A model generated the notes under the pieces. It worked only from the letters and a program-made list of their open reading frames with translations, made no database searches and was not told where the DNA came from. This document shows positions 4,892-21,021 of a stretch of 21,367 nucleotides of DNA, piece by piece. Both the position numbers and the translations under genes were made by a program. Source of the DNA: a virus; the IMG/VR virus record IMGVR_UViG_3300027861_002965, positions 1-21,367 of that record; one strand, 5' to 3'. Numbering within the stretch: position 1 is the stretch's first letter; each line of letters starts with the position of its first letter.

Positions 4892-6185
4892 ATTAGTAGA
4901 CACTAATGCAAATGATGTCTTAAGAGGCGCGGCAGAGCTAGACAGCACTGACGACAAGCTAAATCTTAGGGGGATAATTAAAAATTCTACCTCTGAGCCA
5001 GTGCCCGTTTCATGGCCAGAGGTCAAGGAGGATTCTTTTGGGCGACTAAGGGTATCTGAGCCTGTGCCGGTATGGGAATGGAAAAACATCTATAACATTG
5101 ACTTTGATCTTTATTGGGATAATGAATTAACTTCTGGCGGTACTTTAACCCACAACTCTACTAAAGGGTGCAGGGAATTAGACGTGACTACTTCTATGGG
5201 GTCTAAGACGACTGTTAGGACTCGCAGAAGATTTGAATATAATACTGGTATATCGCACAAGTTCCAGTTCACACTAAACCCTAACAACTCTCAAACTGGT
5301 GTAGCAAAATCTGCCGGGATGTTTGACGACAACAATGGGTTTTTTTGGAGATTTAAAGACGGCGACTTGGCCGTAGTCTATAGAAGTAGTACGAGCGGCA
5401 GTGTAGTTGACAATGTGATAGAGCAAGCAGACTTCAACCAAGATAAGCTAGACGGTACTGATGTAGCTGACGCTCTTGATTTAAATAATGACACTTTGTA
5501 TTTTATCGACTTTGCTTGGTTAGGTGCCGCAGTAATACGTTTTGGGATAGTTCAGAATGGAGTGCCTGTAATTGCACACGCCGAGATATTTTCTCAAGGC
5601 ATATCAGAATCTTATACCCTATCAGCAGTTCTTCCTTTTGCTATAGAGATTGAGTCAACTGGGACGCCCTCGGCCTCAGATTCTATCCAGTTCTTTTGTG
5701 CTAGCTACCAAGTAGAAGGGAAACTAAATGCTCTTGGTAAAGTCAGGACGTGGAATCAAGGAATAACTGAGACCACTGTTTCAGCCGAAGAGGTTGTATG
5801 GGCTGGTAGGTTAAACGATTCCTACCCTTATTCAGCGGCTATTTTTGAAAGAATTAATATTATGATTGAAAGCGGAAACGATGAGGTTCTTTACAAGCTC
5901 TACCATAATCCTACCTTTACAGGTACTCCCACATGGGTCGATCAAGACAATAGCATTATGCAAATAGCATCAAACGCTAACACATTAGGCGCCCCCAGTG
6001 CAGGCTTTGAGGCTGACTCTGGATACATAAGAACGGGTGATGTTTCCGCTTTAAAAAATTCGGTATCAGATGTTTTCTTTGGTTTTAGTATAGATGAAAC
6101 AGCAGATATTTTTATGATAACAATTGACTCTCTGAATGGTTCTGCGAATATTACAGTTAATACCGCCATAAGGGAGTTCTATTAA
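4884..6185 (+). CDS. Conserved beta-rich phage structural protein (fibre or decoration type)
   Basis: A 433-residue protein. The first 65 residues are polar and repeat SEPVPV twice (VPVSWPEVKEDSFGRLRVSEPVPV). The core (about 70-285) contains DLYWDNELTSGGTLTH, TVRTRRRFEYNTGISHKFQF, GMFDDNNGFFWRFKDGDLAV, VIEQADFNQDKLDGT, FIDFAWLGAAVIRFGIV and LPFAIEIE. I recall this series (LYWDxxLxxGGT, RRxFxYxxGxSxxF, FDxNNGxFF, WNxDKLDGT, DFEWLGxGRVRFG) from many environmental phage structural proteins, where it likely forms a jelly-roll or lectin-like fold, though the role is not established. The C-terminal 140 residues (RTWNQGITETTVSAEEVVWA onward) form a second beta-rich domain. Likely exposed on the head or neck. 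The ATG overlaps the previous gene by 8 bases. Confidence 0.7.
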   Translation: MTELVDTNANDVLRGAAELDSTDDKLNLRGIIKNSTSEPVPVSWPEVKEDSFGRLRVSEPVPVWEWKNIYNIDFDLYWDNELTSGGTLTHNSTKGCRELDVTTSMGSKTTVRTRRRFEYNTGISHKFQFTLNPNNSQTGVAKSAGMFDDNNGFFWRFKDGDLAVVYRSSTSGSVVDNVIEQADFNQDKLDGTDVADALDLNNDTLYFIDFAWLGAAVIRFGIVQNGVPVIAHAEIFSQGISESYTLSAVLPFAIEIESTGTPSASDSIQFFCASYQVEGKLNALGKVRTWNQGITETTVSAEEVVWAGRLNDSYPYSAAIFERINIMIESGNDEVLYKLYHNPTFTGTPTWVDQDNSIMQIASNANTLGAPSAGFEADSGYIRTGDVSALKNSVSDVFFGFSIDETADIFMITIDSLNGSANITVNTAIREFY

Positions 6186-8139: not shown

Positions 8140-9303
8140 ATGGCAGACGATGTAATTTTGAACGAATCCAGTGTGGCCATGGTCGTACAAAGTACGGCCC
8201 TCACATACGCCGCACCAAGTTCTGGCACCGATTATATCCAGGTGACGAGTGAGGCAAAACCCTTTTCCAAAAACCGCGAGGCAATCGAAAGAGACACTTT
8301 ATCGGGAACCGTTGAGACAGAAGCGACCCGCGTGGGCATCCCAGAAGTAAGCGGCTCAATCCCTATCGAGCTTTTAGCAAGCGCCACAGCGGGCTCGGCA
8401 CCTCAAAATGCTGACGTTCAGTTAAGGGCAATGCTAGGCGGGAAAAAGACAGAAGCAACCAAGACCGCCACGGCCGCGACAAGCACCGTGATAACTTTCG
8501 CCAGTCATTCCTTTACAGTGGGAAGCTGTGTAAAAGTTCTTGAATCGGGCGCTCACGAAATTCGACCAATTTCTGCGGTCACTGCCACTACTATCACCTT
8601 CCCTTTTGCTCTTGATAATGGAGCGCCTAGTTCAACTGTTGTAGTTGAGGCGGTCACTACTTATTACAGTGACACCACAAGCGCCGTGAATCTTTCCTGT
8701 GAGTGGAACGTGGGGAATGAAATCCAGCAGCAAATCACGGATTTAACGCCAGCCTCTATGACTTTATCAGGATGGGAAGCGGGAAAACCAGCCGCGCTAG
8801 AATTTAGCTATGAAGGGGTAGGGCTTGAAAGAAGCAATGCTTCTCAATCATACACCCCAGATTTTACAGCCGATGCAGAACCACCCGTAGCGCTCTCAGC
8901 TTGCCTCTGGTTAAACGGTTCAAGCACAAGCTATAACGAGCTAGGCCTATCGATAGAGAATGAGTTAGCGCCTAAGCCTGATGCTTGTCAGGCCAATGGT
9001 AAGGCAGGGAGTCCTAGAATTAAAAAGCAGAAATGCTCATTTAATGCCAATGTTTACGCCGACGATACCTTGCTAACTACTTGGGATTTATATAATGACA
9101 ATAATGATATAAGCGTTTTTTATTATATCTATAACCCGTCAGCAACGGCCGGAGAATTTGACGAGGCTATCGCTTTCTGGATGCCTCAAGGCAGAGTCAC
9201 CGCCCACCCTTTTGGAGAGATCGAAGGATTCGTGAGTGATGAGATAGTTATTCAGCCGCATCAATCAAGCGGAAACGATTCTATTTTTATCAGCTACGTT
9301 TAA
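8140..9303 (+). CDS. Tail tube (major tail) protein
   Basis: A 387-residue protein after a strong AGGAG (8129-8133). It would polymerise into the tail tube around the tape measure. The N-terminal part has YIQVTSEAKPFSKNREAIER, RDTLSGTVETEATRVGIPEV and SGSIPIELLASATAGSAPQN, followed by LRAMLGG, the pattern of long phage tail-tube proteins ('E--L-G--E---------SG--P-EL---GTAG--P---LL---LG'). The second half (WNVGNEIQQQITDLTPASMT, GKPAALEFSYEGVG, and NELGLSIENELAP) looks like a second tube-type domain. About double the length of lambda gpV or SPP1 tube proteins, so two tube-fold domains or an added surface domain are likely. Placed right before the G/GT chaperone genes and the tape measure, as expected. 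Confidence 0.8.
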   Translation: MADDVILNESSVAMVVQSTALTYAAPSSGTDYIQVTSEAKPFSKNREAIERDTLSGTVETEATRVGIPEVSGSIPIELLASATAGSAPQNADVQLRAMLGGKKTEATKTATAATSTVITFASHSFTVGSCVKVLESGAHEIRPISAVTATTITFPFALDNGAPSSTVVVEAVTTYYSDTTSAVNLSCEWNVGNEIQQQITDLTPASMTLSGWEAGKPAALEFSYEGVGLERSNASQSYTPDFTADAEPPVALSACLWLNGSSTSYNELGLSIENELAPKPDACQANGKAGSPRIKKQKCSFNANVYADDTLLTTWDLYNDNNDISVFYYIYNPSATAGEFDEAIAFWMPQGRVTAHPFGEIEGFVSDEIVIQPHQSSGNDSIFISYV

Positions 9304-9337: not shown

Positions 9338-9760
9338 GTGAAAATTGCTAGAATAAGCGATAGATTTAAAGTGAAAATGGGAGAGGCCACTTTTATAATT
9401 GGCCCACTAACCAAAGAGCAAAAGGCAGAGGTGGTTGATTGCGAAGTGTTAGAATCTGGGAATCTCAAGTCCGATTTGTATCAAAAGCAATGCATGATTA
9501 TAAAATACGGCTTGAAGGATTTACAAGGGGTTCAAACTTTCGACGAGACACCCTATGTTTTAGAAATGGAGAATGGGTCATTGACGGAAGCTTGTGTGAG
9601 CGACTTATTGATGCTTGAAGGGATAGAAGATTTTGCGGCGATACTTTGGCAAACTCTCAACTCGATACCTGACCAATTGACTGACGGCGAAGGTAAAGTG
9701 ATGGAGGGGGTTAAGCTAGAATATGTAAAAAAGCCAGTGGAGAGTGCAAAAGAGGCGTAG
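9338..9760 (+). CDS. Tail assembly chaperone G
   Basis: A 140-residue acidic protein with GTG start. It contains FKVKMGEATFIIGPLTKEQK, a Cys-containing middle, a central beta/helix region ending in VLEMENGSLTEACVSDLLML, and an amphipathic helix EDFAAILWQTLNS. Between tail tube and tape measure genes, siphophages keep a G / GT chaperone pair that coats the tape measure during tube assembly and is absent from the virion. The gene carries an A_AAA_AAG heptamer in the proper frame (9727-9733), 27 bases before its stop, and a long coding frame continues in -1, exactly as in the lambda G-GT arrangement. The sequence itself is not closely like lambda G; the call rests on the frameshift architecture and gene order. 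Confidence 0.8.
   Translation: MKIARISDRFKVKMGEATFIIGPLTKEQKAEVVDCEVLESGNLKSDLYQKQCMIIKYGLKDLQGVQTFDETPYVLEMENGSLTEACVSDLLMLEGIEDFAAILWQTLNSIPDQLTDGEGKVMEGVKLEYVKKPVESAKEA
9727..9733 (+). promoter_or_regulatory. Programmed -1 ribosomal frameshift site (A_AAA_AAG)
   Basis: In the G frame the codons read GTA AAA AAG, giving the classic slippery heptamer A AAA AAG. A -1 slip moves reading from the G frame to the frame that is open from 9715 to 10230. Downstream, GAGGCGT/ACGCCTTT-type sequences can form a stem of about nine pairs (5' arm 9750-9758, loop 9759-9766, 3' arm 9767-9775, one G-U pair), starting 16 bases after the heptamer. This hairpin includes the first base of the G stop codon. The spacing is longer than the usual 5-9 bases, so the hairpin may not be the stimulator. 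The heptamer and frame relation are directly visible; that slipping occurs is inference from the conserved phage mechanism. Confidence 0.85.
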
Positions 9761-10230
9761 GAAATAACGCCTTTTATTTACTCTCCGAGAAAATTCTAGA
9801 ATTATCCTCTGTCTCTCCTGGCGAATATGCTCAATTAATAGCTGGATTCATGGTTTATTTTGATAAGCAATACCAATGCGGAGATTGTAAAGTGAAGTAT
9901 CGAGGCGACCCTGCAAAGCAAAGAAAATCCCAAGAAAGAAAGGGCTGCTTTGCCCCCGCCACTAGTCCCCGCTCTTATATCCCCAAGCATAATATGAGAG
10001 GCACCCCCAAGGTGATCTTTTCAAAATGTCCCGCCTATTATGCAGATAAAGGAATGGGAGGACTAATCAATGACCATTTTCATATTGAAAAGGGCCAATA
10101 CCCTTACCCAGGCACATATAGAGAGCAGCCCGCTAAATTTGACGAGGTCATGGGGATGATTTCTAATTTAATGAGAGAGAAAGAGAAGTCCGACGAGGGT
10201 GCGGCGAAAAGGTTAAACTATGGCAAATGA
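9733..10230 (+). CDS. T part of tail chaperone GT, with a four-cysteine domain
   Basis: This frame has no good independent start before 9850, yet it is clearly coding upstream of that ATG (LSEKILELSSVSPGEYAQLI is read from 9781). It is therefore most likely made as a -1 extension of G, giving a GT fusion of about 297 residues (132 from G plus 165). The T region has Cys at codons 9877, 9886, 9946 and 10027 (CGDC, KGC, SKC), a CX2C-X19-C-X26-C spacing that could bind zinc. It then has CPAYYADKGMGG, YPYPGTYREQPAKFDEVMGM and a charged helix. GT recruits tube subunits to the tape measure in known systems. The last 11 bases overlap the tape measure start, again as in other siphophages. The ATG at 9850 alone would give a 126-residue product and cannot be excluded. 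Confidence 0.75.
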   Translation, partial: ASGECKRGVGNNAFYLLSEKILELSSVSPGEYAQLIAGFMVYFDKQYQCGDCKVKYRGDPAKQRKSQERKGCFAPATSPRSYIPKHNMRGTPKVIFSKCPAYYADKGMGGLINDHFHIEKGQYPYPGTYREQPAKFDEVMGMISNLMREKEKSDEGAAKRLNYGK

Positions 10231-12247
10231 AGTCCAAATCGAAATCACCGCAGACGAAAAAAAGGCTCTTGCTGCTCTAAAAAAGATGACCGCCGCTGTT
10301 GATAGGTTCGAGAAAACTACAAAGAAAAGCAGCAAAAAAGTTGACGGCCATTTCAGGCAATTGAATAAAGGTATAGCCGTATTTAAAGGGAATTTGGCCG
10401 CCATTGGAGTGACAAAAGTTTTCGATCTCTTGGCCAGCGGGATAAGAAAATCGGTTGAAGCCGCCAGAGAAATGGAAACGATTGAGACCCAATTAAAAGT
10501 TATCCTAGGCAGTACCGAGGCAGCAGAGAGACAGATGCGAGCTTTGCAGCAGTTCGCCGCAAATACTCCTTTTGAAATTCAAGGTATAGCTAATTCAGCC
10601 AAGCAGTTATTAGCTTTTGGCGTCTCCCAAAAACAAGTCATTCCAATACTTAAGCAACTAGGCGATGCTGCGGCTGGGTCAGGGGCAAGAATTGAGGATT
10701 TAACTATCCCTTATGGGCGGCTTATTTCCACACAGAAGCTAACCCTTATCGAGCTTGATAAATTCCAAGACAGGGGAATCCCAATATTTAATGAGCTTAA
10801 AAGAGTCTCTGGAATCTCTTTAGGTGAAATGCGAAAAGCTATTACTAACGGGAAGATTTCTTTTGAGGAATTTCAAAAAGCCATGAGTAATTTAACAGGG
10901 GAAGGGGGAACTTTCTTTAACGCAATGGAAGAAAGAAGCAACACTCTCGACGGCAACTTAAGCAACTTAGAGGACTCTTTTACTATAACTGCCGCCGCCA
11001 TTGGTAAAATGTTTAGTCCTTTAATTATTTCAGGGGCCAAGAAATTATCCCAATTACTTGGGGCAATAACGAGAAAGGTTGACCCGACACCTATCCAAGA
11101 CATAACTCAGAAAATAGGAAAGTTAAAAACTCAGATTTTTTTCGCCAAACAAGAGGCTGCTAAGTTTAATGGATTATTAGGAACCGCTGCGACGCTCAAG
11201 AGGCTAAAAACTGAATTTGCCGAGTTAAGGAAAAAAAGAAGGGAATTAAGAAAAAGTATTGATATTCAAAAAGAAGCTGGGGCACTGGTAACAGGCGACC
11301 CAGGCGCGGCAGCAAAAGCCGCAGAGGAAGCGGCAAGAGCGGAGGCAGAAAAGCAAAAAGCAATCACTAAAATAAAAGACGAGGCAAGAGTAGCAGAACA
11401 AGAAAAGACTGCCCTTGTTTTAGTAAGAAGGGACGAGGAAAATATTACAGAGCTTGAAAAGCTCACTGAGCAATATGGGGCAAAGGCAGCCCTGGAAATC
11501 GTACACCAAACACAATTGACAGAAATTCAGCTAGGTGCCGAGGCTGCAAAGCTTAAACGCCAGCAATTAATCGACAAGGCAGAAGTAGAAAAAGATAAAA
11601 AGACCCTTGAGAATAAAAAGAAAATGGCCCTGCTGGAAAAGGATTTAAACCTTAAGACCGCCCAGGCCTCAATTAATGTGGCCCAAAATGCCGCCAATTT
11701 GCTAACCGCGATAGCCGGAAAAGAGACAGCCGCCAGTTTTATCCTGGGAAAGGTTGCCGCTGTTGGACAGGTTTTATTAGCTGACTCCCAAGCAAGGGCC
11801 GCCGCTACCGCTGCAAGTGCTGCCGCTTCAATCGCTGCGGGCCCTGGTGCCCTTGCCGCCTTTACCGCCAACATGGCAGCCTACACAGGAATAATCACAG
11901 CAAACACCGCCCTATCACTAGGGACTATCGCCGCCCAATCGCTTCAAGGTTTTGCGGGTGGTGGTATTATTGGCCAGAGCATGGGCGCCACTAGCGGGAT
12001 GGACAATCGCCTGGCCACCGTTAGGGATGGCGAAATGATTTTAAACGCAAGCGATCAGAGAAATGTTTTTAACGCAATAAGTAGCGGCTCAATTGGTGGC
12101 GGCGGGGATTCTATGGCACTATTAAATAGTATCAATCAAGGAATTAGCGCACTTTTGGCCAAAGATAATGTCATAGAAATTGACGGCCGAGAATTAGGGC
12201 GCAGCATCCGAGATATTTCAACAGGTAGGGGCTTTGTACTAGCATGA
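10220..12247 (+). CDS. Tail tape measure protein
   Basis: A 675-residue protein, the second longest in the window, that sets tail length and is ejected with the DNA. The N-terminus has paired helical segments with VQIEITADEKKALAALKKMT. About residues 60-260 form a typical tape-measure domain: VFDLLASGIRKSVEAAREME, METIETQLKVILGS, LQQFAANTPFEIQGIANSAK, FGVSQKQVIPILKQLGDAAA and GRLISTQKLTLIELDKFQDR. A Lys/Glu/Ala coiled-coil region (about 320-480) follows, then an Ala-rich hydrophobic stretch (about 500-575) that may be membrane-active, and a C-terminal GFAGGGIIGQSMG ... ATVRDGEMILNASDQ ... FNAISSGSIGGGGD segment common at tape-measure ends. With about 0.15 nm per residue, a tail near 100 nm is expected. 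No lytic domain is evident. Confidence 0.9.
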   Translation: MANEVQIEITADEKKALAALKKMTAAVDRFEKTTKKSSKKVDGHFRQLNKGIAVFKGNLAAIGVTKVFDLLASGIRKSVEAAREMETIETQLKVILGSTEAAERQMRALQQFAANTPFEIQGIANSAKQLLAFGVSQKQVIPILKQLGDAAAGSGARIEDLTIPYGRLISTQKLTLIELDKFQDRGIPIFNELKRVSGISLGEMRKAITNGKISFEEFQKAMSNLTGEGGTFFNAMEERSNTLDGNLSNLEDSFTITAAAIGKMFSPLIISGAKKLSQLLGAITRKVDPTPIQDITQKIGKLKTQIFFAKQEAAKFNGLLGTAATLKRLKTEFAELRKKRRELRKSIDIQKEAGALVTGDPGAAAKAAEEAARAEAEKQKAITKIKDEARVAEQEKTALVLVRRDEENITELEKLTEQYGAKAALEIVHQTQLTEIQLGAEAAKLKRQQLIDKAEVEKDKKTLENKKKMALLEKDLNLKTAQASINVAQNAANLLTAIAGKETAASFILGKVAAVGQVLLADSQARAAATAASAAASIAAGPGALAAFTANMAAYTGIITANTALSLGTIAAQSLQGFAGGGIIGQSMGATSGMDNRLATVRDGEMILNASDQRNVFNAISSGSIGGGGDSMALLNSINQGISALLAKDNVIEIDGRELGRSIRDISTGRGFVLA

Positions 12248-13983: not shown

Positions 13984-14900
13984 TGAAAAATGTATTCTTA
14001 GCACTTATTTTATTTTGTATTACGACAGGATTGGCCAAAGGGAAAACACCTCTTTATTACGGGCCTAAGAAAAATCTAGAATTTAAAGTCCATGACCCCA
14101 GCTTTCAGGTGGCCACCACTGTAATTACTTTGGCAAGCTCGACCCCTGGAATACAGTTTCATTTTCCACTAACTCTAGACGATGTAACCGCCACAAGTAC
14201 GCCGACCAATGGGGCTTCACTTTACTCACTTAATGGCAAGTTGGTAGAAACCAGGGACGATGGCACAAATACTTTCATCACAGATACCCCTACGGCTTTA
14301 CTTTCTTCCACTTCTGAACTTACCACAAGCGGCGGGGCCGTTATTCTCTCGGCGACAAGTTCAGGTGATTACACTTTCACTTTTCCAAGTGCTGCGGGCG
14401 CTAGTGGTGAGACATTAACCGCTGATGGTAATGGGGGCCATACTTACGAAGCAGCAACAGGGGTTACAGTTCAACATGATGGTTGGCGAAAATATACAGG
14501 CTACGGGTCATCTGATACTAAAATTCCCTACGGAATACTATCGGCAACCTCTACGGGTAGCGGGCTTTTTACCTTTGCCACTTCTACGACTAACGGAACT
14601 ATAGTTACTTTTCTGACAGAAGGACAAGAGGTCACAACTTGTTTAAGTTACGGCCAATCGGGAGAGTTTGGCATGACCGTAGACAGTACCCGTCTAACTA
14701 CTAATATCAGCACTATTGCAAACTCGGCTGCGGGGGAAATCATATCAATATCCCATGCAGCGGGCGGGGGTGGTGTCAATTACGGCAATACTTGTGTAAC
14801 TTTTTTCCCTGCGAGTGGGCAAGTGTTGAGGCCTCATACTGTTGGCCAAACACCTAACGCTAATTTTGGGATTTTTACAGTTACGTCAAAGCAAAGGTAA
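13983..14900 (+). CDS. Fibre-type protein with an N-terminal signal peptide
   Basis: A 305-residue protein starting at a TAATG junction. The first ~19 residues (MKNVFLALILFCITTGLA) form a clear Sec-type signal peptide: two-residue basic start, hydrophobic core, and a GLA cleavage-like site before KGKTPL. The rest is Ser/Thr/Gly-rich and beta-type: FKVHDPSFQVATTVITLASS, VILSATSSGDYTFTFPSAAG, ASGETLTADGNGGHTY (a pattern typical of fibre or appendage stalks), then a C-terminal ~140-residue domain with CLSYGQSGEFGMTVDSTRLT and VLRPHTVGQTPNANFGIFTV, like phage tip domains. Two Cys lie in the C-terminal domain. A signal peptide on a structural-type protein is unusual; export to the host envelope or retention in the membrane are possible. 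The start is firm through the overlap with the preceding gene. Confidence 0.7.
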   Translation: MKNVFLALILFCITTGLAKGKTPLYYGPKKNLEFKVHDPSFQVATTVITLASSTPGIQFHFPLTLDDVTATSTPTNGASLYSLNGKLVETRDDGTNTFITDTPTALLSSTSELTTSGGAVILSATSSGDYTFTFPSAAGASGETLTADGNGGHTYEAATGVTVQHDGWRKYTGYGSSDTKIPYGILSATSTGSGLFTFATSTTNGTIVTFLTEGQEVTTCLSYGQSGEFGMTVDSTRLTTNISTIANSAAGEIISISHAAGGGGVNYGNTCVTFFPASGQVLRPHTVGQTPNANFGIFTVTSKQR

Positions 14901-14904
14901 AAAA

Positions 14905-17445
14905 TTGACCACTTATGCTGAGTTTTCCACTAACCCGAGAAGCGAGAAAGGTATCTTGGCCTGGGTAGAACCTACTCAAAAGCTGATTACTTTTACTTTG
15001 TTTTCTGGTGCGGTTTATTCGCGAATAACTTCCTATTTTGTAATTGGGGTAAGTGCTAGCGGCACCGATTTAACAGAAGGGAGTTCCTCTACTTTAAATG
15101 CCTCAGAGTGGTTTTTTGATGCGGTTAACTTAACTCTATATGTAAGAATGAGTGACGATCTAGACCCGAAAACTCACGACTTATCAGTAAAATACCGCCT
15201 TTTTTATTCCAATCTTGACTATAATTTGCCTTATGACCTGGCCAGCGGCGAGGTGGTTAATTATGACGCCTTGATAATGGGTAGCTCTAAATTCTCTCAG
15301 GAACTAGACGAGGAACAGACGGGCATTTCTTTAGAATCGACAGGCTCAATTAAGTTTCAAAATACCGGCGGGCATTTCGATAATATTTTCGACACTCTTT
15401 TCTGGGAAAATAAAAGAGTGGTGATTTACTCCTGGGGCCCTTCAATTGCCATAAGCGAAAAGAGAAAGCTATTTGAGGGAGTAATAGACAAAAAAGGGTT
15501 TACTGAAAACCAAGTAACCTTTGGCCTTAGAGACAATATTTTCCAATTGAGAAAAAAATTAAACCTCTCTCTTTTTTCAAGCTCTGACGGAAGCCTAAGC
15601 GATGACATTTTAGGCACCCCTAAGCGGGCAGTATATGGCCAGGTTAAGCAGATGCAAGCTATAGGCATAGATAAGGTTTTAGACGGCTACACATTAACAG
15701 GAACAGTTTCAGGCGTTAGTGGCGCCCTTATAATTAAAGGAACTGGCACAGCTTTTCTAGATGAGTGTAGTCCTGGCGATAATTTAAAAATTACTCTCCC
15801 TGCCGAAGTATTGGAAATTAAAATCGACTCGGTTGATACGGATACACAGATCACTATATCTGACGCATTAAACTCTGGATTTGATACACTTGCGGCATTA
15901 AATGAGCCCGCTAGACCATGGCGAAAAAAGAATCGCAATTGGCATATATCGGGTCATAAATTAAGGGCACCGGCCACCACAATTGCCACAGCGGTGCAAG
16001 AAAATCGCTATACTATTGTCGATACTACGGATTTTTTTACAGGGGATTCTATACAAATTGACGGAGAGTCAACAGAGGTTAGACGGCTCTCTGGTGATCT
16101 TATTGTGCTGGAAAATAATCTCCAAGCGGGAATAGCCTCGATAGGTGACGCGGTAACAAAGAACCCCGTCACAAAAGTATTATTTGGGGCAACCGAACTT
16201 TTGGTCGATAGAGATTGGACTCTTTCAAATACTTCCACCGATGCCATTATTAACTTTACCAATACGGCAGAATTTAATGCTCAAAAAAGGGTTTCAATAG
16301 TCGGAACTATCACATTTACAAATAATTCCAGGGCAATTACCGGCACAAATTCAGCTTTTAAAACCGATTTTCAAACTAGAGACTGGATACAATCAGACGA
16401 CACAAGCCACACGGCCTTTTATGAAGTTTTAAGTATAGAAAGCGATACTGCTATGACTCTTAGAGTAGTTTACGGCGGGGCCACTCATGGAGTCGGCGCT
16501 TTTAAAAAGAATGTAAAAATACTAGATGATACTGCTCTCGTACTAATTGACACGGTAGGCAGAGAGCGTTCAGGTGCCTGGGTAAAGACGGCCAGCGATG
16601 TAGTAAAAGACGTTTTAGAAAACGATGCGGGGTTAACCTCTCTCAATTCTGCCTCTTTTACCACTGCCGATACTCAGGCACCTTTTATAATGTCGATGGT
16701 TTTCCCTGAAAGCATTGGGGGAAAGGCGCCAGAAATTAAAAAGGTGATAAATTTAGTTAATGAGTCAGTATTTGGGAGCCTTACTTTTAACCAAGATTTT
16801 GATTTAGTATTTACGATTTTGAACTCTGAAAAACCGATCTCTTTAGTGGAAATAAAAGACGATGATACTCTATCTTTTGGAATCCTTTCAAATATGAATA
16901 TTTTCAATAAGGTAAAAACTAATTATTCCCATTTTGTCGATAAATTTAGCGGTGACGATACTAGCGAGACCATAGAAAAAACTTCTAGCTTTGTTAATAA
17001 TCACATAGGCACCGAGAAAACAGAGGACTTAGAAATTTACCTTTTTAATGAATCAGACGCCTCTGTAATATCAGAAAGATATTTGCTCTTTCATTCGCTT
17101 TCGCAATCAGTCGTAAAAGTAGCGGGCAAGCTTGACCTTTCAACTTACAATTTAAACGATAAAATTTACATAGATTTTGACCGCGCCCCTTTGCGATTCG
17201 CTCAAACAGATCGGCGTAAAATAGGGATATTAAGCAGAATTAAAAGAGATGGGGAAAACTCTGAGGCAGAGTTCCAAGATATTTCGAACATTTTATCGAG
17301 AGTTCCCGCCATTGCTCCAAACACCACGGCCGCCTTTTCAAGTGCTACCGCTGACGATTTGGTAAAATACGGCTGGATTTGCGATAATACTACTGCGACC
17401 CCCGATGGCACCGAGAGTCAATTGGGCTCAAACTTAATAGGATAG
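14905..17445 (+). CDS. Large tail tip hub protein (TTG start)
   Basis: The longest gene here, about 846 residues from TTG 14905. The in-frame ATG at 14842 would put 21 unrelated residues inside the coding end of the fibre gene, while TTG lies four bases after that gene's stop with AAAGG upstream and gives MTTYAEFSTNP. The N-terminal ~190 residues (ASEWFFDAVNLTLYVRMSDD, DLSVKYRLFYSNLDYNLPYD, SIKFQNTGGHFDNIF, VVIYSWGP) match the hub-type proteins placed after the tape measure in many siphophages. The middle holds two copies of a small beta domain near 15700-15887 and 16303-16500. The C-terminal part is helical/beta (KKVINLVNESVFGSLTFNQD) with an end typical of this family (GSNLIG). Likely roles are closing the tube end and triggering DNA release. 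No lytic motif is seen. Confidence 0.7.
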   Translation: MTTYAEFSTNPRSEKGILAWVEPTQKLITFTLFSGAVYSRITSYFVIGVSASGTDLTEGSSSTLNASEWFFDAVNLTLYVRMSDDLDPKTHDLSVKYRLFYSNLDYNLPYDLASGEVVNYDALIMGSSKFSQELDEEQTGISLESTGSIKFQNTGGHFDNIFDTLFWENKRVVIYSWGPSIAISEKRKLFEGVIDKKGFTENQVTFGLRDNIFQLRKKLNLSLFSSSDGSLSDDILGTPKRAVYGQVKQMQAIGIDKVLDGYTLTGTVSGVSGALIIKGTGTAFLDECSPGDNLKITLPAEVLEIKIDSVDTDTQITISDALNSGFDTLAALNEPARPWRKKNRNWHISGHKLRAPATTIATAVQENRYTIVDTTDFFTGDSIQIDGESTEVRRLSGDLIVLENNLQAGIASIGDAVTKNPVTKVLFGATELLVDRDWTLSNTSTDAIINFTNTAEFNAQKRVSIVGTITFTNNSRAITGTNSAFKTDFQTRDWIQSDDTSHTAFYEVLSIESDTAMTLRVVYGGATHGVGAFKKNVKILDDTALVLIDTVGRERSGAWVKTASDVVKDVLENDAGLTSLNSASFTTADTQAPFIMSMVFPESIGGKAPEIKKVINLVNESVFGSLTFNQDFDLVFTILNSEKPISLVEIKDDDTLSFGILSNMNIFNKVKTNYSHFVDKFSGDDTSETIEKTSSFVNNHIGTEKTEDLEIYLFNESDASVISERYLLFHSLSQSVVKVAGKLDLSTYNLNDKIYIDFDRAPLRFAQTDRRKIGILSRIKRDGENSEAEFQDISNILSRVPAIAPNTTAAFSSATADDLVKYGWICDNTTATPDGTESQLGSNLIG

Positions 17446-18350: not shown

Positions 18351-18511
18351 TGAAAATTGATGTTAAAACCGTGATTCTCTTAATTATGACCACTGCCAGC
18401 GTGGTGGTTTATGCTCACACTACTTTTGCAGAAAAAAGAAGCGTGGAAAAATTAACAGATATGGTTTTCGATATTTATAAGCACCATAAACTAGACAAGG
18501 TTAAAAAATGA
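18350..18511 (+). CDS. 53-residue membrane microprotein at the start of the lysis block
   Basis: Read directly: ATG at 18350 shares a base with the stop of the gene before, and TGA 18509-18511 overlaps the endolysin start ATG at 18508. The product begins MKIDVKTVILLIMTTASVVV and ends HHKLDKVKK. One hydrophobic segment (about residues 6-22), then an amphipathic helix SVEKLTDMVFDIYKHHKLDK. This plan, one membrane helix plus cytoplasmic or periplasmic helix, is common in small lysis-cassette proteins (antiholin, holin-like or i-spanin-like). The tight coupling to the endolysin supports translation and a lysis link, but the role is inferred. Confidence 0.6.
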   Translation: MKIDVKTVILLIMTTASVVVYAHTTFAEKRSVEKLTDMVFDIYKHHKLDKVKK

Positions 18512-18885
18512 GCCTTTTCAGTAAAAAGGACGAGGTAAACCTGGATGATCTCATGGAATTACACCCTAATATGCTCGGCTTGCTTTACTCTTTTATTATG
18601 TACTGCAACTTTAAAGGCCTCCCTTGTAAAATTACCTCTCTCAAAGAAGAGGCAGCAGGGCGAGTAAGTAGGTCACACATTGAGGGGCGCGCTGCTGATT
18701 TTAGTTCCCGAGGATTCTCAACAGATGACATAGACGATTTTTTAGTTCATTTTAATAAAAAATATGAGGATATAGCCGCAATTTCAGCCAAAGATTTAAA
18801 GCCCAGAGCCTTAGTTTATCACCGAGCAAAATTACCTGATGGGAGCTATGGGGCTGCCCACTTTCACTTACAAGTCAAACCTTAG
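18508..18885 (+). CDS. Endolysin: M15-type zinc peptidase
   Basis: A 125-residue protein with the peptidase M15 (D-Ala-D-Ala carboxypeptidase / endolysin) signature: S-H-x-x-G-R-A-x-D read as SHIEGRAADF at residues 56-65 and a second metal motif HFHLQV at 118-123. H57, D64 and one His of HFH (118 or 120) are the expected zinc ligands. It should cleave peptide bonds in peptidoglycan, giving host lysis. It has no signal peptide or cell-wall binding domain, so a holin is needed for export. It is a single-domain minimal enzyme. The start overlaps the upstream microprotein by four bases. The holin-like gene follows after a 12-base gap. The motif match makes this call strong. Confidence 0.85.
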   Translation: MSLFSKKDEVNLDDLMELHPNMLGLLYSFIMYCNFKGLPCKITSLKEEAAGRVSRSHIEGRAADFSSRGFSTDDIDDFLVHFNKKYEDIAAISAKDLKPRALVYHRAKLPDGSYGAAHFHLQVKP

Positions 18886-18897
18886 AAGGGGTATTAA

Positions 18898-19173
18898 ATG
18901 GAATTTGAAGCCGCAGCACAATTTGCCAAACCATTAATCGAAGCACTTGCTGGAAAGCATGGGACAGTCGTTCAGATAATAGTCCTAATGGGCTCCCTTA
19001 GAGTATTTTTAAAGCCTCTTACTTCTCTTGCTCGGACTTATGTAGAATTTACGCCGAGTAAATCAGATGACGAGAAGCTTGAGAAAATCCTAAACTCGGA
19101 GATTTATAAAAAAGCCTCTTTTGTGATTGATTACTTTGCATCCCTTAAATTGCCTCAGAAAAAAGAGGAATAA
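18898..19173 (+). CDS. Conserved small phage protein, candidate holin
   Basis: A 91-residue protein preceded by an AAGGGG site. It has an N-terminal amphipathic stretch, a hydrophobic segment at about 24-42 (TVVQIIVLMGSLRVFLKPLT), then TYVEFTPSKSDDEKLEKILN, an SEIYKKASFVIDYFASLKLP end and KKEE. The series 'R-FLKPL----R-YVE-TP-K-DDE----I--S--YK----V-DY-ASIKLP' is one I know from small proteins of phage lysis cassettes; some are labelled holin. It has only one clear membrane segment, and the pore role is inferred from location next to the endolysin. It overlaps the next gene by one base. Confidence 0.6.
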   Translation: MEFEAAAQFAKPLIEALAGKHGTVVQIIVLMGSLRVFLKPLTSLARTYVEFTPSKSDDEKLEKILNSEIYKKASFVIDYFASLKLPQKKEE

Positions 19174-19388
19174 TGGGAACGATTCTCACCGTCTTAAAAG
19201 CTGTTGCCGACCTAATCCCTTTAGTAAAAAAGATTTGGGAAAATTACGGTAAATTTAAAGAGGCAAGAGAGAAGAAAAAACTCAATGAGAAGAAAAAGAA
19301 AATTAACAAGCTAACCAAGAAAGCGAAAAATGCGAAAACTAGCAAAGACAGGGCTGATATTGTACGCGATATTAACGGGCGCGAGTAA
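19173..19388 (+). CDS. Small basic helical protein of the lysis block
   Basis: A 71-residue, Lys-rich, helical protein. N-terminal TVLKAVADLIPLVKKIW is amphipathic and only weakly hydrophobic, so a membrane anchor is possible but not clear. The rest is a charged helix (REKKKLNEKKKKINKLTKKA) with an ending TSKDRADIVRDING. It overlaps the lipoprotein-like gene by 59 bases in a different frame, the arrangement seen in Rz/Rz1 spanin pairs, which fuse inner and outer membranes in the last step of Gram-negative lysis. As an i-spanin it would lack a convincing membrane helix, so this is a possibility only. Confidence 0.5.
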   Translation: MGTILTVLKAVADLIPLVKKIWENYGKFKEAREKKKLNEKKKKINKLTKKAKNAKTSKDRADIVRDINGRE

Positions 19389-19614
19389 ATGCGAAAAGCA
19401 CCCCTCGCCAATTGGGGAGCTTTGTTTGATTGGCCCTGGTAAAAGTCAGTGTAATGACCCAAGGCTAGAAAAAAAGAATTACGAGAGAGAAAATAAAGAT
19501 ATGGTAAATTATTTCGCTACTAATCCTGACGATTTTAGAGCGATAAAAGACTATACCGAAGAAATTAGAACTAAATTGATACAATGTGAAAGCAAGTCAA
19601 AGGGGCCTTATTAA
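19330..19614 (+). CDS. Lipoprotein-like small protein, candidate o-spanin
   Basis: A 94-residue protein starting inside the preceding gene. The N-terminus MRKLAKTGLILYAILTGASK followed by Cys 21 resembles a lipoprotein signal, though Lys before the Cys is atypical for signal peptidase II (small residues are expected). The remainder has GELCLIGPGKSQCND, YERENKDMVNYFATNPDDFR, and AIKDYTEEIRTKLIQCESKS, with four Cys in all. The C-terminal helix with 'D--AI--Y---I---L--C' resembles small Cys-containing lysis proteins I know from phages. In this location an o-spanin role is plausible. If the Cys is not lipidated, it would be a secreted disulphide protein. The stop is directly followed by the LamG fibre gene. 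Confidence 0.55.
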   Translation: MRKLAKTGLILYAILTGASKCEKHPSPIGELCLIGPGKSQCNDPRLEKKNYERENKDMVNYFATNPDDFRAIKDYTEEIRTKLIQCESKSKGPY

Positions 19615-21021
19615 ATGAGCTTAACCAACACGATCAACTATGTGACCCCTAGTAACTTTACCCTTTCTGATTCTGACGAAATAGAGATAAGCGGCTCGGT
19701 GTTAACATTGAAGCAATTAACCACGCTCCAAACTGGCGAGCTTGTCTATATACCATTAACCACCAGCGAAGAATTTGCAGCGAGAAGAAAGACCGGCTCG
19801 GCAATTACTGAAACAGAGGCCAGCGGCGGCAATAACTCTTGGGAAAATAACTATCTGAATTTTTCCAGCACCTTGGATTATATCTCAATCCCGATAGATA
19901 ATTGGGCCCCAACTTCTGCAAATGATTATCAGTTTGATTTTTATTACAAGCCCGCCGGTTCAGGAAATCCTGCCTCGGCCCTTGATTTGTTACATAAAAA
20001 AGAAGTGTCCAATGATAACAATAGGCTACTTTTGACTCATGCAGCGAACGGGACTTTTTCTGTCACTATTTGGGATAGTGCCGGTCTTTATAAGGGGGCA
20101 CCAGGCGCTTCTTGGTCACCAACGGCGGGCCAGGAATATCATATCGCCGTAGCTATGGGGCCGACAAAGCAGGAAATTTTTATCGACGGGGTTTCTTTTG
20201 CCTCGCAATCTGTCGCGGTTACCCTGGCGGCACCGGCAGACGGTGTAATTAATATAGGCTCCAATGGTTCAGCCGTTTCCCATGGAAGCTTTAAGCAATT
20301 TATTTTATGGGACGGGGTGCAGAATACAACCACTTTTACCCCCGCAATTCCTCGCCAGTATTCAAGTGACAACCCCAATGCTTTAGTAAATGCCACCACT
20401 ACGGCAGATTCCTTATCTTCTTTCTCTGAAACTGCTGCAAGTAAAACAGGGAGCGACGAGTTTAAATATACAATCTATGTAAATAGTATTGATAAATATT
20501 GGGACGGCGCCGCTTGGGCCACTAGTGACGGCACCTATACTCAAGCCTCTGATGACGCTACAATTTTGGCAAACATTTCTAGCCTTGATATTTCATCAGG
20601 GAAAAGTATTCAAATCAGAGCGTTTGCCCATAGCGATGACGGCTTAACCTCCCCCACTCTTACCTCTATTTCGTATGACTACGGCTTTTTTAATACCGCT
20701 ACCACTCCCGCAATGTGCACGATCAGCGGCGAGGTAGTAAACCTTTCAGGCAATCCAGTAGAAGGGGCCAGAATAGAAATCACAAACGTAAGTGGGACGC
20801 CTTATCTTTATGATTCTGCACTAGTGGCAAAAGCTGCTAAAACCTATACCGATGAGGATGGGAAGTTTGAAATCCCATTAATTGAGACCGCTACCGATGC
20901 GAAAACCGTAGACATTAAGGCCTATTTTTACGATCTAGCTGGAATGGAAGTGACTAAGACGCTGGCCAGTGCGGTGACGATACCGAACCAGTCCAGCGCC
21001 TCAATTGAGGATTTAGTTTAA
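19615..21021 (+). CDS. LamG-type fibre/adhesin with carboxypeptidase-regulatory-like end
   Basis: A 468-residue multi-domain protein with no signal peptide. Residues about 75-250 form a LamG/concanavalin-like sandwich (YLNFSSTLDYISIPIDNWAP, DYQFDFYYKPAGSG, LLLTHAANGTFSVTIWDSAG, YHIAVAMGPTKQEIFIDGVS, INIGSNGSAVSHGSFKQFIL). Residues about 275-370 are a beta domain with KYTIYVNSIDKYWDGAAW, SDGTYTQASDDATILANISS and GKSIQIRAFAHSDDG, a pattern common in phage and viral surface proteins. The end (about 375-468) is a CarboxypepD_reg / Ig-like domain (TISGEVVNLSGNPVEGARIE, TYTDEDGKFEIPLIE). Such chains occur in phage fibres and adhesins binding surface glycans. It lies after the lysis block, like side fibres in many phages. 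Its stop codon overlaps that of a minus-strand gene. Confidence 0.7.
   Translation: MSLTNTINYVTPSNFTLSDSDEIEISGSVLTLKQLTTLQTGELVYIPLTTSEEFAARRKTGSAITETEASGGNNSWENNYLNFSSTLDYISIPIDNWAPTSANDYQFDFYYKPAGSGNPASALDLLHKKEVSNDNNRLLLTHAANGTFSVTIWDSAGLYKGAPGASWSPTAGQEYHIAVAMGPTKQEIFIDGVSFASQSVAVTLAAPADGVINIGSNGSAVSHGSFKQFILWDGVQNTTTFTPAIPRQYSSDNPNALVNATTTADSLSSFSETAASKTGSDEFKYTIYVNSIDKYWDGAAWATSDGTYTQASDDATILANISSLDISSGKSIQIRAFAHSDDGLTSPTLTSISYDYGFFNTATTPAMCTISGEVVNLSGNPVEGARIEITNVSGTPYLYDSALVAKAAKTYTDEDGKFEIPLIETATDAKTVDIKAYFYDLAGMEVTKTLASAVTIPNQSSASIEDLV

Follow-up and report, generated by a model that had tools for sequence, protein, structure and literature searches.

The uncultivated phage whose DNA was analyzed very probably uses a programmed -1 frameshift of the lambda G/GT type, by which a G-T fusion protein would be made. 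This reading is drawn from the sequence of the phage and of its relatives, and the evidence is of five kinds: the overlap of the two frames, the phase of a slippery heptamer, a predicted hairpin, the conservation of T ahead of any start codon, and the recurrence of the arrangement in related tail modules. The window, i.e. the whole stretch of DNA that was analyzed, is a virus record of 21,367 bases, of which the plus strand carries a capsid and tail gene cluster. The G and T frames are flanked by a predicted tail tube gene upstream and the tape measure gene downstream. The coordinates of the features discussed here are collected in Table 1.

Table 1. Features of the predicted G/GT frameshift locus and of its two neighbors in the window
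Feature	Position	Strand	Basis and remarks
G, predicted tail assembly chaperone, 140 aa	9338..9760	+	GTG start behind AGGAGG; stop TAG 9758-9760
Slippery heptamer A_AAA_AAG, in phase with G, then CC	9727..9733	+	Sequence; relatives
Two-part stem-loop, likely frameshift stimulator	9738..9787	+	9738-9746/9779-9787 and 9750-9758/9767-9775, loop 9759-9766
T domain, -1 frame after the predicted slip, 165 aa, four conserved Cys	9733..10230	+	Would form the 297-aa GT with G
Overlap of both open frames, 46 nt; a shift must occur within it	9715..9760	+	Frame reading
Predicted tail tube protein, upstream neighbor	8140..9303	+	PF18906, 48.3 bits (cut-off 27)
Tape measure protein, downstream neighbor	10220..12247	+	PF20155, 99.9 bits; overlaps T by 11 nt

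The organization of the two frames in the window was analyzed. The T frame, in the -1 register relative to G, follows a TAA at 9712 and remains open from 9715 to the TAA at 10228-10230; its earliest ATG, GTG or TTG is the ATG at 9850. The overlap holds a single X_XXY_YYZ heptamer, the A_AAA_AAG, which is read as A-AAA-AAG within the G frame and is separated from the G stop by 24 nt, or 27 nt when the count runs to the last base of the stop codon. The heptamer in the G frame near its stop and the -1 frame open well ahead of ATG 9850, both described in the original prediction, were borne out. A slip at the heptamer would make G read on as K-K-ASGEC and so forth, giving a GT of 297 aa. For E. coli, a review names A_AAA_AAG, G_GGA_AAG and C_CCA_AAG as highly shift-prone, and CC as the most shift-prone dinucleotide 3' of A_AAA_AAG (PMC5009743); the window has CC at 9734-9735, directly 3' of the heptamer. 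No Shine-Dalgarno-like stimulator was found close upstream of the heptamer, the nearest candidate (GGAGGGGG, 9703-9710) ending 16 nt before it. AAAAAAG is common in the window, where it was observed 33 times on both strands (15.9 expected) and 11 times in phase within the 29 listed plus-strand gene frames, that of G included and the ten others being in other genes. The heptamer alone is thus weak evidence, and it is the relatives that decide. One of the other in-phase copies lies at 2367-2373, 7 codons ahead of the stop of the gene at 1912-2397, and a -1 shift at that site would append 27 codons.

Folding of 9734-9800 recovered the hairpin of nine pairs with an 8-base loop that had been predicted at 9750-9775, and revealed in addition a lower stem of nine extra pairs, joined to the upper one across a 3x3 internal loop. 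Pairing starts 4 nt past the heptamer and the structure spans the G stop codon. The original prediction had missed this lower stem; it placed the beginning of the hairpin 16 bases downstream, farther than usual, and proposed that it may have another role. With the lower stem the spacing is 4 nt, which is usual, and since a longer stem at normal spacing fits a frameshift stimulator, another role is not needed. An unrecognized lower stem has been mistaken for spacer before, according to the same source (PMC5009743). The minimum free energy of the predicted stem-loop is -25.0 kcal/mol: none of 200 dinucleotide shuffles was as stable (z -4.7), and among 14,206 segments of 60 nt taken on both strands in steps of 3, 13 were at least as stable, four of them being the hairpin itself. 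A pseudoknot through the hairpin loop was considered and rejected, the longest complement within the next 113 nt being 5 nt.

No relative was returned when IMG/VR was scanned directly with either T or G, and a search of GT against 50,697 phage records gave two matches (E 1 and 2), which were disregarded. Relatives were obtained through other genes of the cluster. The tape measure protein led to locus L002; the tail protein at 14842-17445 led to L005-L010 and, as alignment A2, to L011-L020; the gene after the tape measure, as alignment A6, led to 80 loci, some of them repeats of earlier loci. No relative turned up in bacterial and archaeal genomes scanned with A2 and A6, so that the host cannot be named. 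Matches to both the G and the T profiles were present in 57 of the 98 sequences examined, window included, which reduce to 37 distinct regions; these are partly kin, with L014/L015, L050/L051 and L076/L077/L078 as near relatives.

Comparing the heptamer among relatives had been proposed as a check of the original prediction, and it supports the frameshift. The G and T frames overlap in the -1 register in all 37 regions, and an in-phase X_XXY_YYZ heptamer lies within the overlap in 29 of them, window included. These heptamers are distributed as follows: 11 A_AAA_AAG (two in longer A runs), 14 G_GGA_AAG, 2 C_CCA_AAG, 1 G_GGA_AAC and 1 A_AAA_AAC. The three shift-prone kinds A_AAA_AAG, G_GGA_AAG and C_CCA_AAG thus account for 27 of the 29. 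The A_AAA_AAC, found in L092, is doubtful, since it precedes the stop codon by 26 nt and falls in a tail rich in lysine. As a control, the last 49 nt of the other ORFs of the same loci were examined; any X_XXY_YYZ heptamer was present in 42 of 412, among which were 6 AAAAAAG and neither GGGAAAG nor CCCAAAG. The site is particularly constrained in the near-identical records L014 and L015, where the heptamer is boxed by two stops (TAA GGGAAAG TAA; TAAGGGAAAGTAA in L014), and the G stop follows GGGAAAG immediately in L010 (GGGAAAG TAG), L055 and others. The sites of L014/L015 and L010 permit nothing but a slip at the heptamer itself or independent initiation of T. In L011, a frame between tail genes (5490-5972) was seen on reading to resemble a GIY-YIG homing endonuclease.

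To the 29 heptamers of the window's family (type 1) can be added those of a second cassette (type 2). The gene after the tape measure was accompanied by no G match at 37 loci, of which 7 had no tape measure frame, 10 lacked the upstream part, 2 were duplicates and 18 were used. At each of these 18, all distinct, two small frames overlap in the -1 register and an in-phase heptamer is present (15 A_AAA_AAG, 2 A_AAA_AAA and 1 C_CCA_AAG). Profile comparison of the type-2 G and T with the G and T families of the window found no relation (HHalign probability 0.5% or less). Since the G/T families found at the same place have no detectable relation, these related tails would thus carry two different chaperone pairs, each in the shift layout. 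The predicted -1 frameshift making GT in a lambda G/GT layout is supported by both sets, i.e. by heptamers in 29 of 37 and in 18 of 18 loci.

The fold of the 60 nt past the heptamer was compared in these relatives with that of control segments lying 100-220 nt further on, the near-duplicates L015, L051, L077 and L084 being left out. The mean z was -1.06 against -0.10 for type 1 (26 of 29 sites, 7 below -2, p 0.035) and -1.58 against 0.07 for type 2 (17 of 18 sites, 7 below -2, p 0.0003), kinship among the rows making these p values too small. The strongest downstream fold among type-1 sites is that of the window, whose own hairpin was seen in none of the relatives compared. A z of about 0 or above follows the heptamer in 11 of 26 type-1 and 5 of 17 type-2 relatives, which indicates that the stimulator is not universal.

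The alternative that survives best, although we regard it as improbable, is that G and T are separate proteins: T would have its own start at ATG 9850 or be translated by ribosomes re-initiating past the G stop, the heptamer being an accident of a lysine-rich, A-rich gene end. The eleven in-phase copies of A_AAA_AAG in the genes of the window agree with such an accident, as do the 8 of 37 relatives without a canonical heptamer, but an accident would not recur in phase at 29 of 37 and 18 of 18 loci when it is found at 42 of 412 other ORF ends. In favor of separate initiation of T, a start codon comes soon after the G stop in some relatives (e.g. ATG at +3 in L095, at +24 in L032); in many others the earliest possible T start lies 60-380 nt beyond it. 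In the window itself, the sequence just before ATG 9850 contains no AGGAGG-like motif, and this codon lies past residues I27, S31, Y38 and F45 of T (numbered from 9715), which are invariant in a 7-sequence alignment. Nine close pairs were also compared over the stretch that separates the G stop from the first ATG, differences being counted by codon position (first, second, third). They fall mostly on the third position in L050/L051 (1, 0, 5), L043/L050 (8, 8, 20) and L036/L055 (9, 8, 15); the bias is less clear in L076/L077 (15, 10, 16), L006/L045 (6, 5, 9) and L039/L040 (20, 8, 24).

Transcriptional slippage on the A run, by which some mRNAs would contain an extra A, seems more improbable still. 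Runs of at least seven A are present at the same place in L002, L093, L090, L059 and L083, but the run of the window has only six A, 17 of the 29 type-1 sites have GGGAAAG, CCCAAAG or GGGAAAC, in which there is no long homopolymer, and the downstream hairpin together with the phase requirement points to the ribosome. Least likely of all is that a sequencing error, or a frameshift mutation of recent origin, has broken one gene in two: the virus record that forms the window is probably of metagenomic origin, and single-base errors are common in A runs, but the same -1 overlap is present in all 37 homologous regions and at all 18 type-2 loci.

Eight of the 37 regions (L006, L045, L012, L032, L039, L040, L042 and L065) lack a canonical heptamer although G and T are both present and still overlap in the -1 register. 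Relatives of this kind had been named in the original prediction as what would refute it; we do not read the eight, a minority of the regions, as a refutation for the window. A near-miss, G_AAA_AAA, is present in three of them: L006 and L045 (GC AAG AAA AAA, then stop) and L012 (AAG AAA AAA CCA). The overlaps of L032, L039, L040, L042 and L065 contain no in-phase X_XXY_YYZ heptamer, and visual inspection, in which Shine-Dalgarno-like sequences, tetramer slips and start codons were sought, gave no signal common to the five. L039, L040 and L065 have a common pattern before the G stop, consisting of CCC, three bases and a GGAG-like or GGGAG-like sequence. On the G plus T tree the heptamer/no-heptamer label requires at least four changes, and we take the eight regions to represent shift sites that have drifted, or that differ, in a small number of lineages. 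The authors of PRFect report 22 phage genomes whose overlap contains none of their slippery motifs, and suggest a possible broadening of the motif through G:U re-pairing (PMC10274946); G_AAA_AAA could be a case of such a widened motif. A more general proposal, which we put forward tentatively, is that the -1 fusion is kept in one tail chaperone family while the shift signal turns over. The heptamer-less lineages may then use a signal other than X_XXY_YYZ, e.g. single-tRNA slippage beside the stop, and the same tails may swap in an undetectably related G/T pair that also relies on a -1 heptamer. The heptamer-less relatives form a concrete set in which non-canonical -1 signals can be sought. The record containing L006 (IMGVR_UViG_3300025652_000060, 65,335 bases) carries two tail modules, L006 with GCAAGAAAAAATAA and no canonical heptamer, and L033 with GGGAAAG; it may be a chimera, may combine two viruses or may come from a phage that has two tails.

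To characterize the two families, G and T of the window were compared with Pfam and PHROGs, with no significant match. Extending the comparison with PHROGs to 32 G and 34 T members gave none at E 0.01; at E up to 1 the matches scatter over 27 families for each of G and T, none of which is matched by more than 3 members. One T member, that of L010, has a match at E 0.027 to phrog_9001 ("tail assembly chaperone"). This family was given no weight, as whole-record matches to it occur in 2 of 7 records and also in 3 of 14 controls. A few Pfam matches at E 0.0019-0.04 were likewise set aside, since they concern single members and unrelated families. The G and T families are thus new to the libraries searched (PHROGs and Pfam). 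Among the papers listed on frameshifting and tail chaperones, none on this G/T family was seen, which is no proof of absence.

Sequence searches of the PDB with G and T returned nothing meaningful, and structures were modeled with AlphaFold2 from alignments of 32 G (31 relatives aligned to the G of the window) and 34 T (pLDDT 91.6 and 91.9, respectively). Two PDB structures match the G model best: 5ir0 (Z 6.0), which is a functionally uncharacterized protein encoded by a PICI-like element of Vibrio cholerae, and the tail assembly chaperone of HK97, 2ob9 (Z 5.7). The entry that follows them has a Z of 2.1. A Z under 8 can reflect a common arrangement. The match to 2ob9 extends over 90 aligned residues with an rmsd of 5.1 and 10-14% identity, and 2ob9 is also first in the Foldseek PDB list, but with an E of 0.57. 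Several of the matches to the G model in a viral library are named tail assembly chaperone (best named E 7.6e-3). As judged from the model, G likely shares its fold with the HK97 chaperone, the match being modest. No convincing fold match was obtained for the T model, the best rows of which include Sap1 (Z 4.3). The T domain contains four conserved Cys in a CxxC...C...C arrangement, most of which are missing in the clade of L087 and L092-L097; they suggest a metal-binding domain.

The locus resembles that of lambda gpG/gpGT by the order tail tube - G/T - tape measure, by the -1 overlap and by a heptamer near the G stop. Lambda's own heptamer is GGGAAAG, which is also used by several relatives of the window. 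The window differs from lambda by its A_AAA_AAG, by G and T without a trustworthy PHROG or Pfam match and by its four-Cys T. The dnaX cassette also combines A_AAA_AAG with a downstream hairpin, in a different gene. Its type of Shine-Dalgarno-like stimulator is located about 10 nt upstream of the heptamer, whereas the window has none at such a spacing (GGAGGGGG being 16 nt off). A_AAA_AAG is indeed the slippery site of dnaX, and the G/GT frameshift is described as conserved in a wide range of long-tailed phages in spite of low similarity in sequence, known G/T pairs sharing little sequence (PMC5009743). The G-T frameshifts of haloarchaeal siphoviruses (HCTV-1, -2 and -5) are found in different viruses and were set beside the window by description.

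The predicted frameshift would proceed as follows. Most ribosomes would translate G and terminate at the TAG at 9758. A minority would pause with tRNA-Lys on AAA in the P site and on AAG in the A site, slip back one base onto AAA AAA with the help of the stem-loop starting 4 nt downstream, and go on translating the -1 frame as far as 10230. If the products act as they do in lambda, the tape measure protein would be coated by G together with the G portion of GT, and recruitment of the tail tube protein would fall to T. We infer in this way the occurrence of the shift, its frequency and the binding partners of its products. An automatic annotation would miss the GT fusion, or would list T as a short gene starting at 9850, with the loss of the first 39 codons after the slip. 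The predicted frameshift adds G and T families without a PHROGs or Pfam model to the G/GT class, and the related tail modules provide about 50 natural shift sites in which heptamer, spacer and hairpin can be compared.

Two further regions of the window were noted. The stablest 60-nt fold of the record (-31.2 kcal/mol, 21001-21019, minus strand) is placed at the junction between a gene ending at 21021 and a minus-strand frame, which is a terminator-like position. A possible lysis cassette was read in two small frames that overlap (19173-19388 and 19330-19614), the second of which has a signal-like start; a 125-aa frame at 18508-18885 lies upstream of them.
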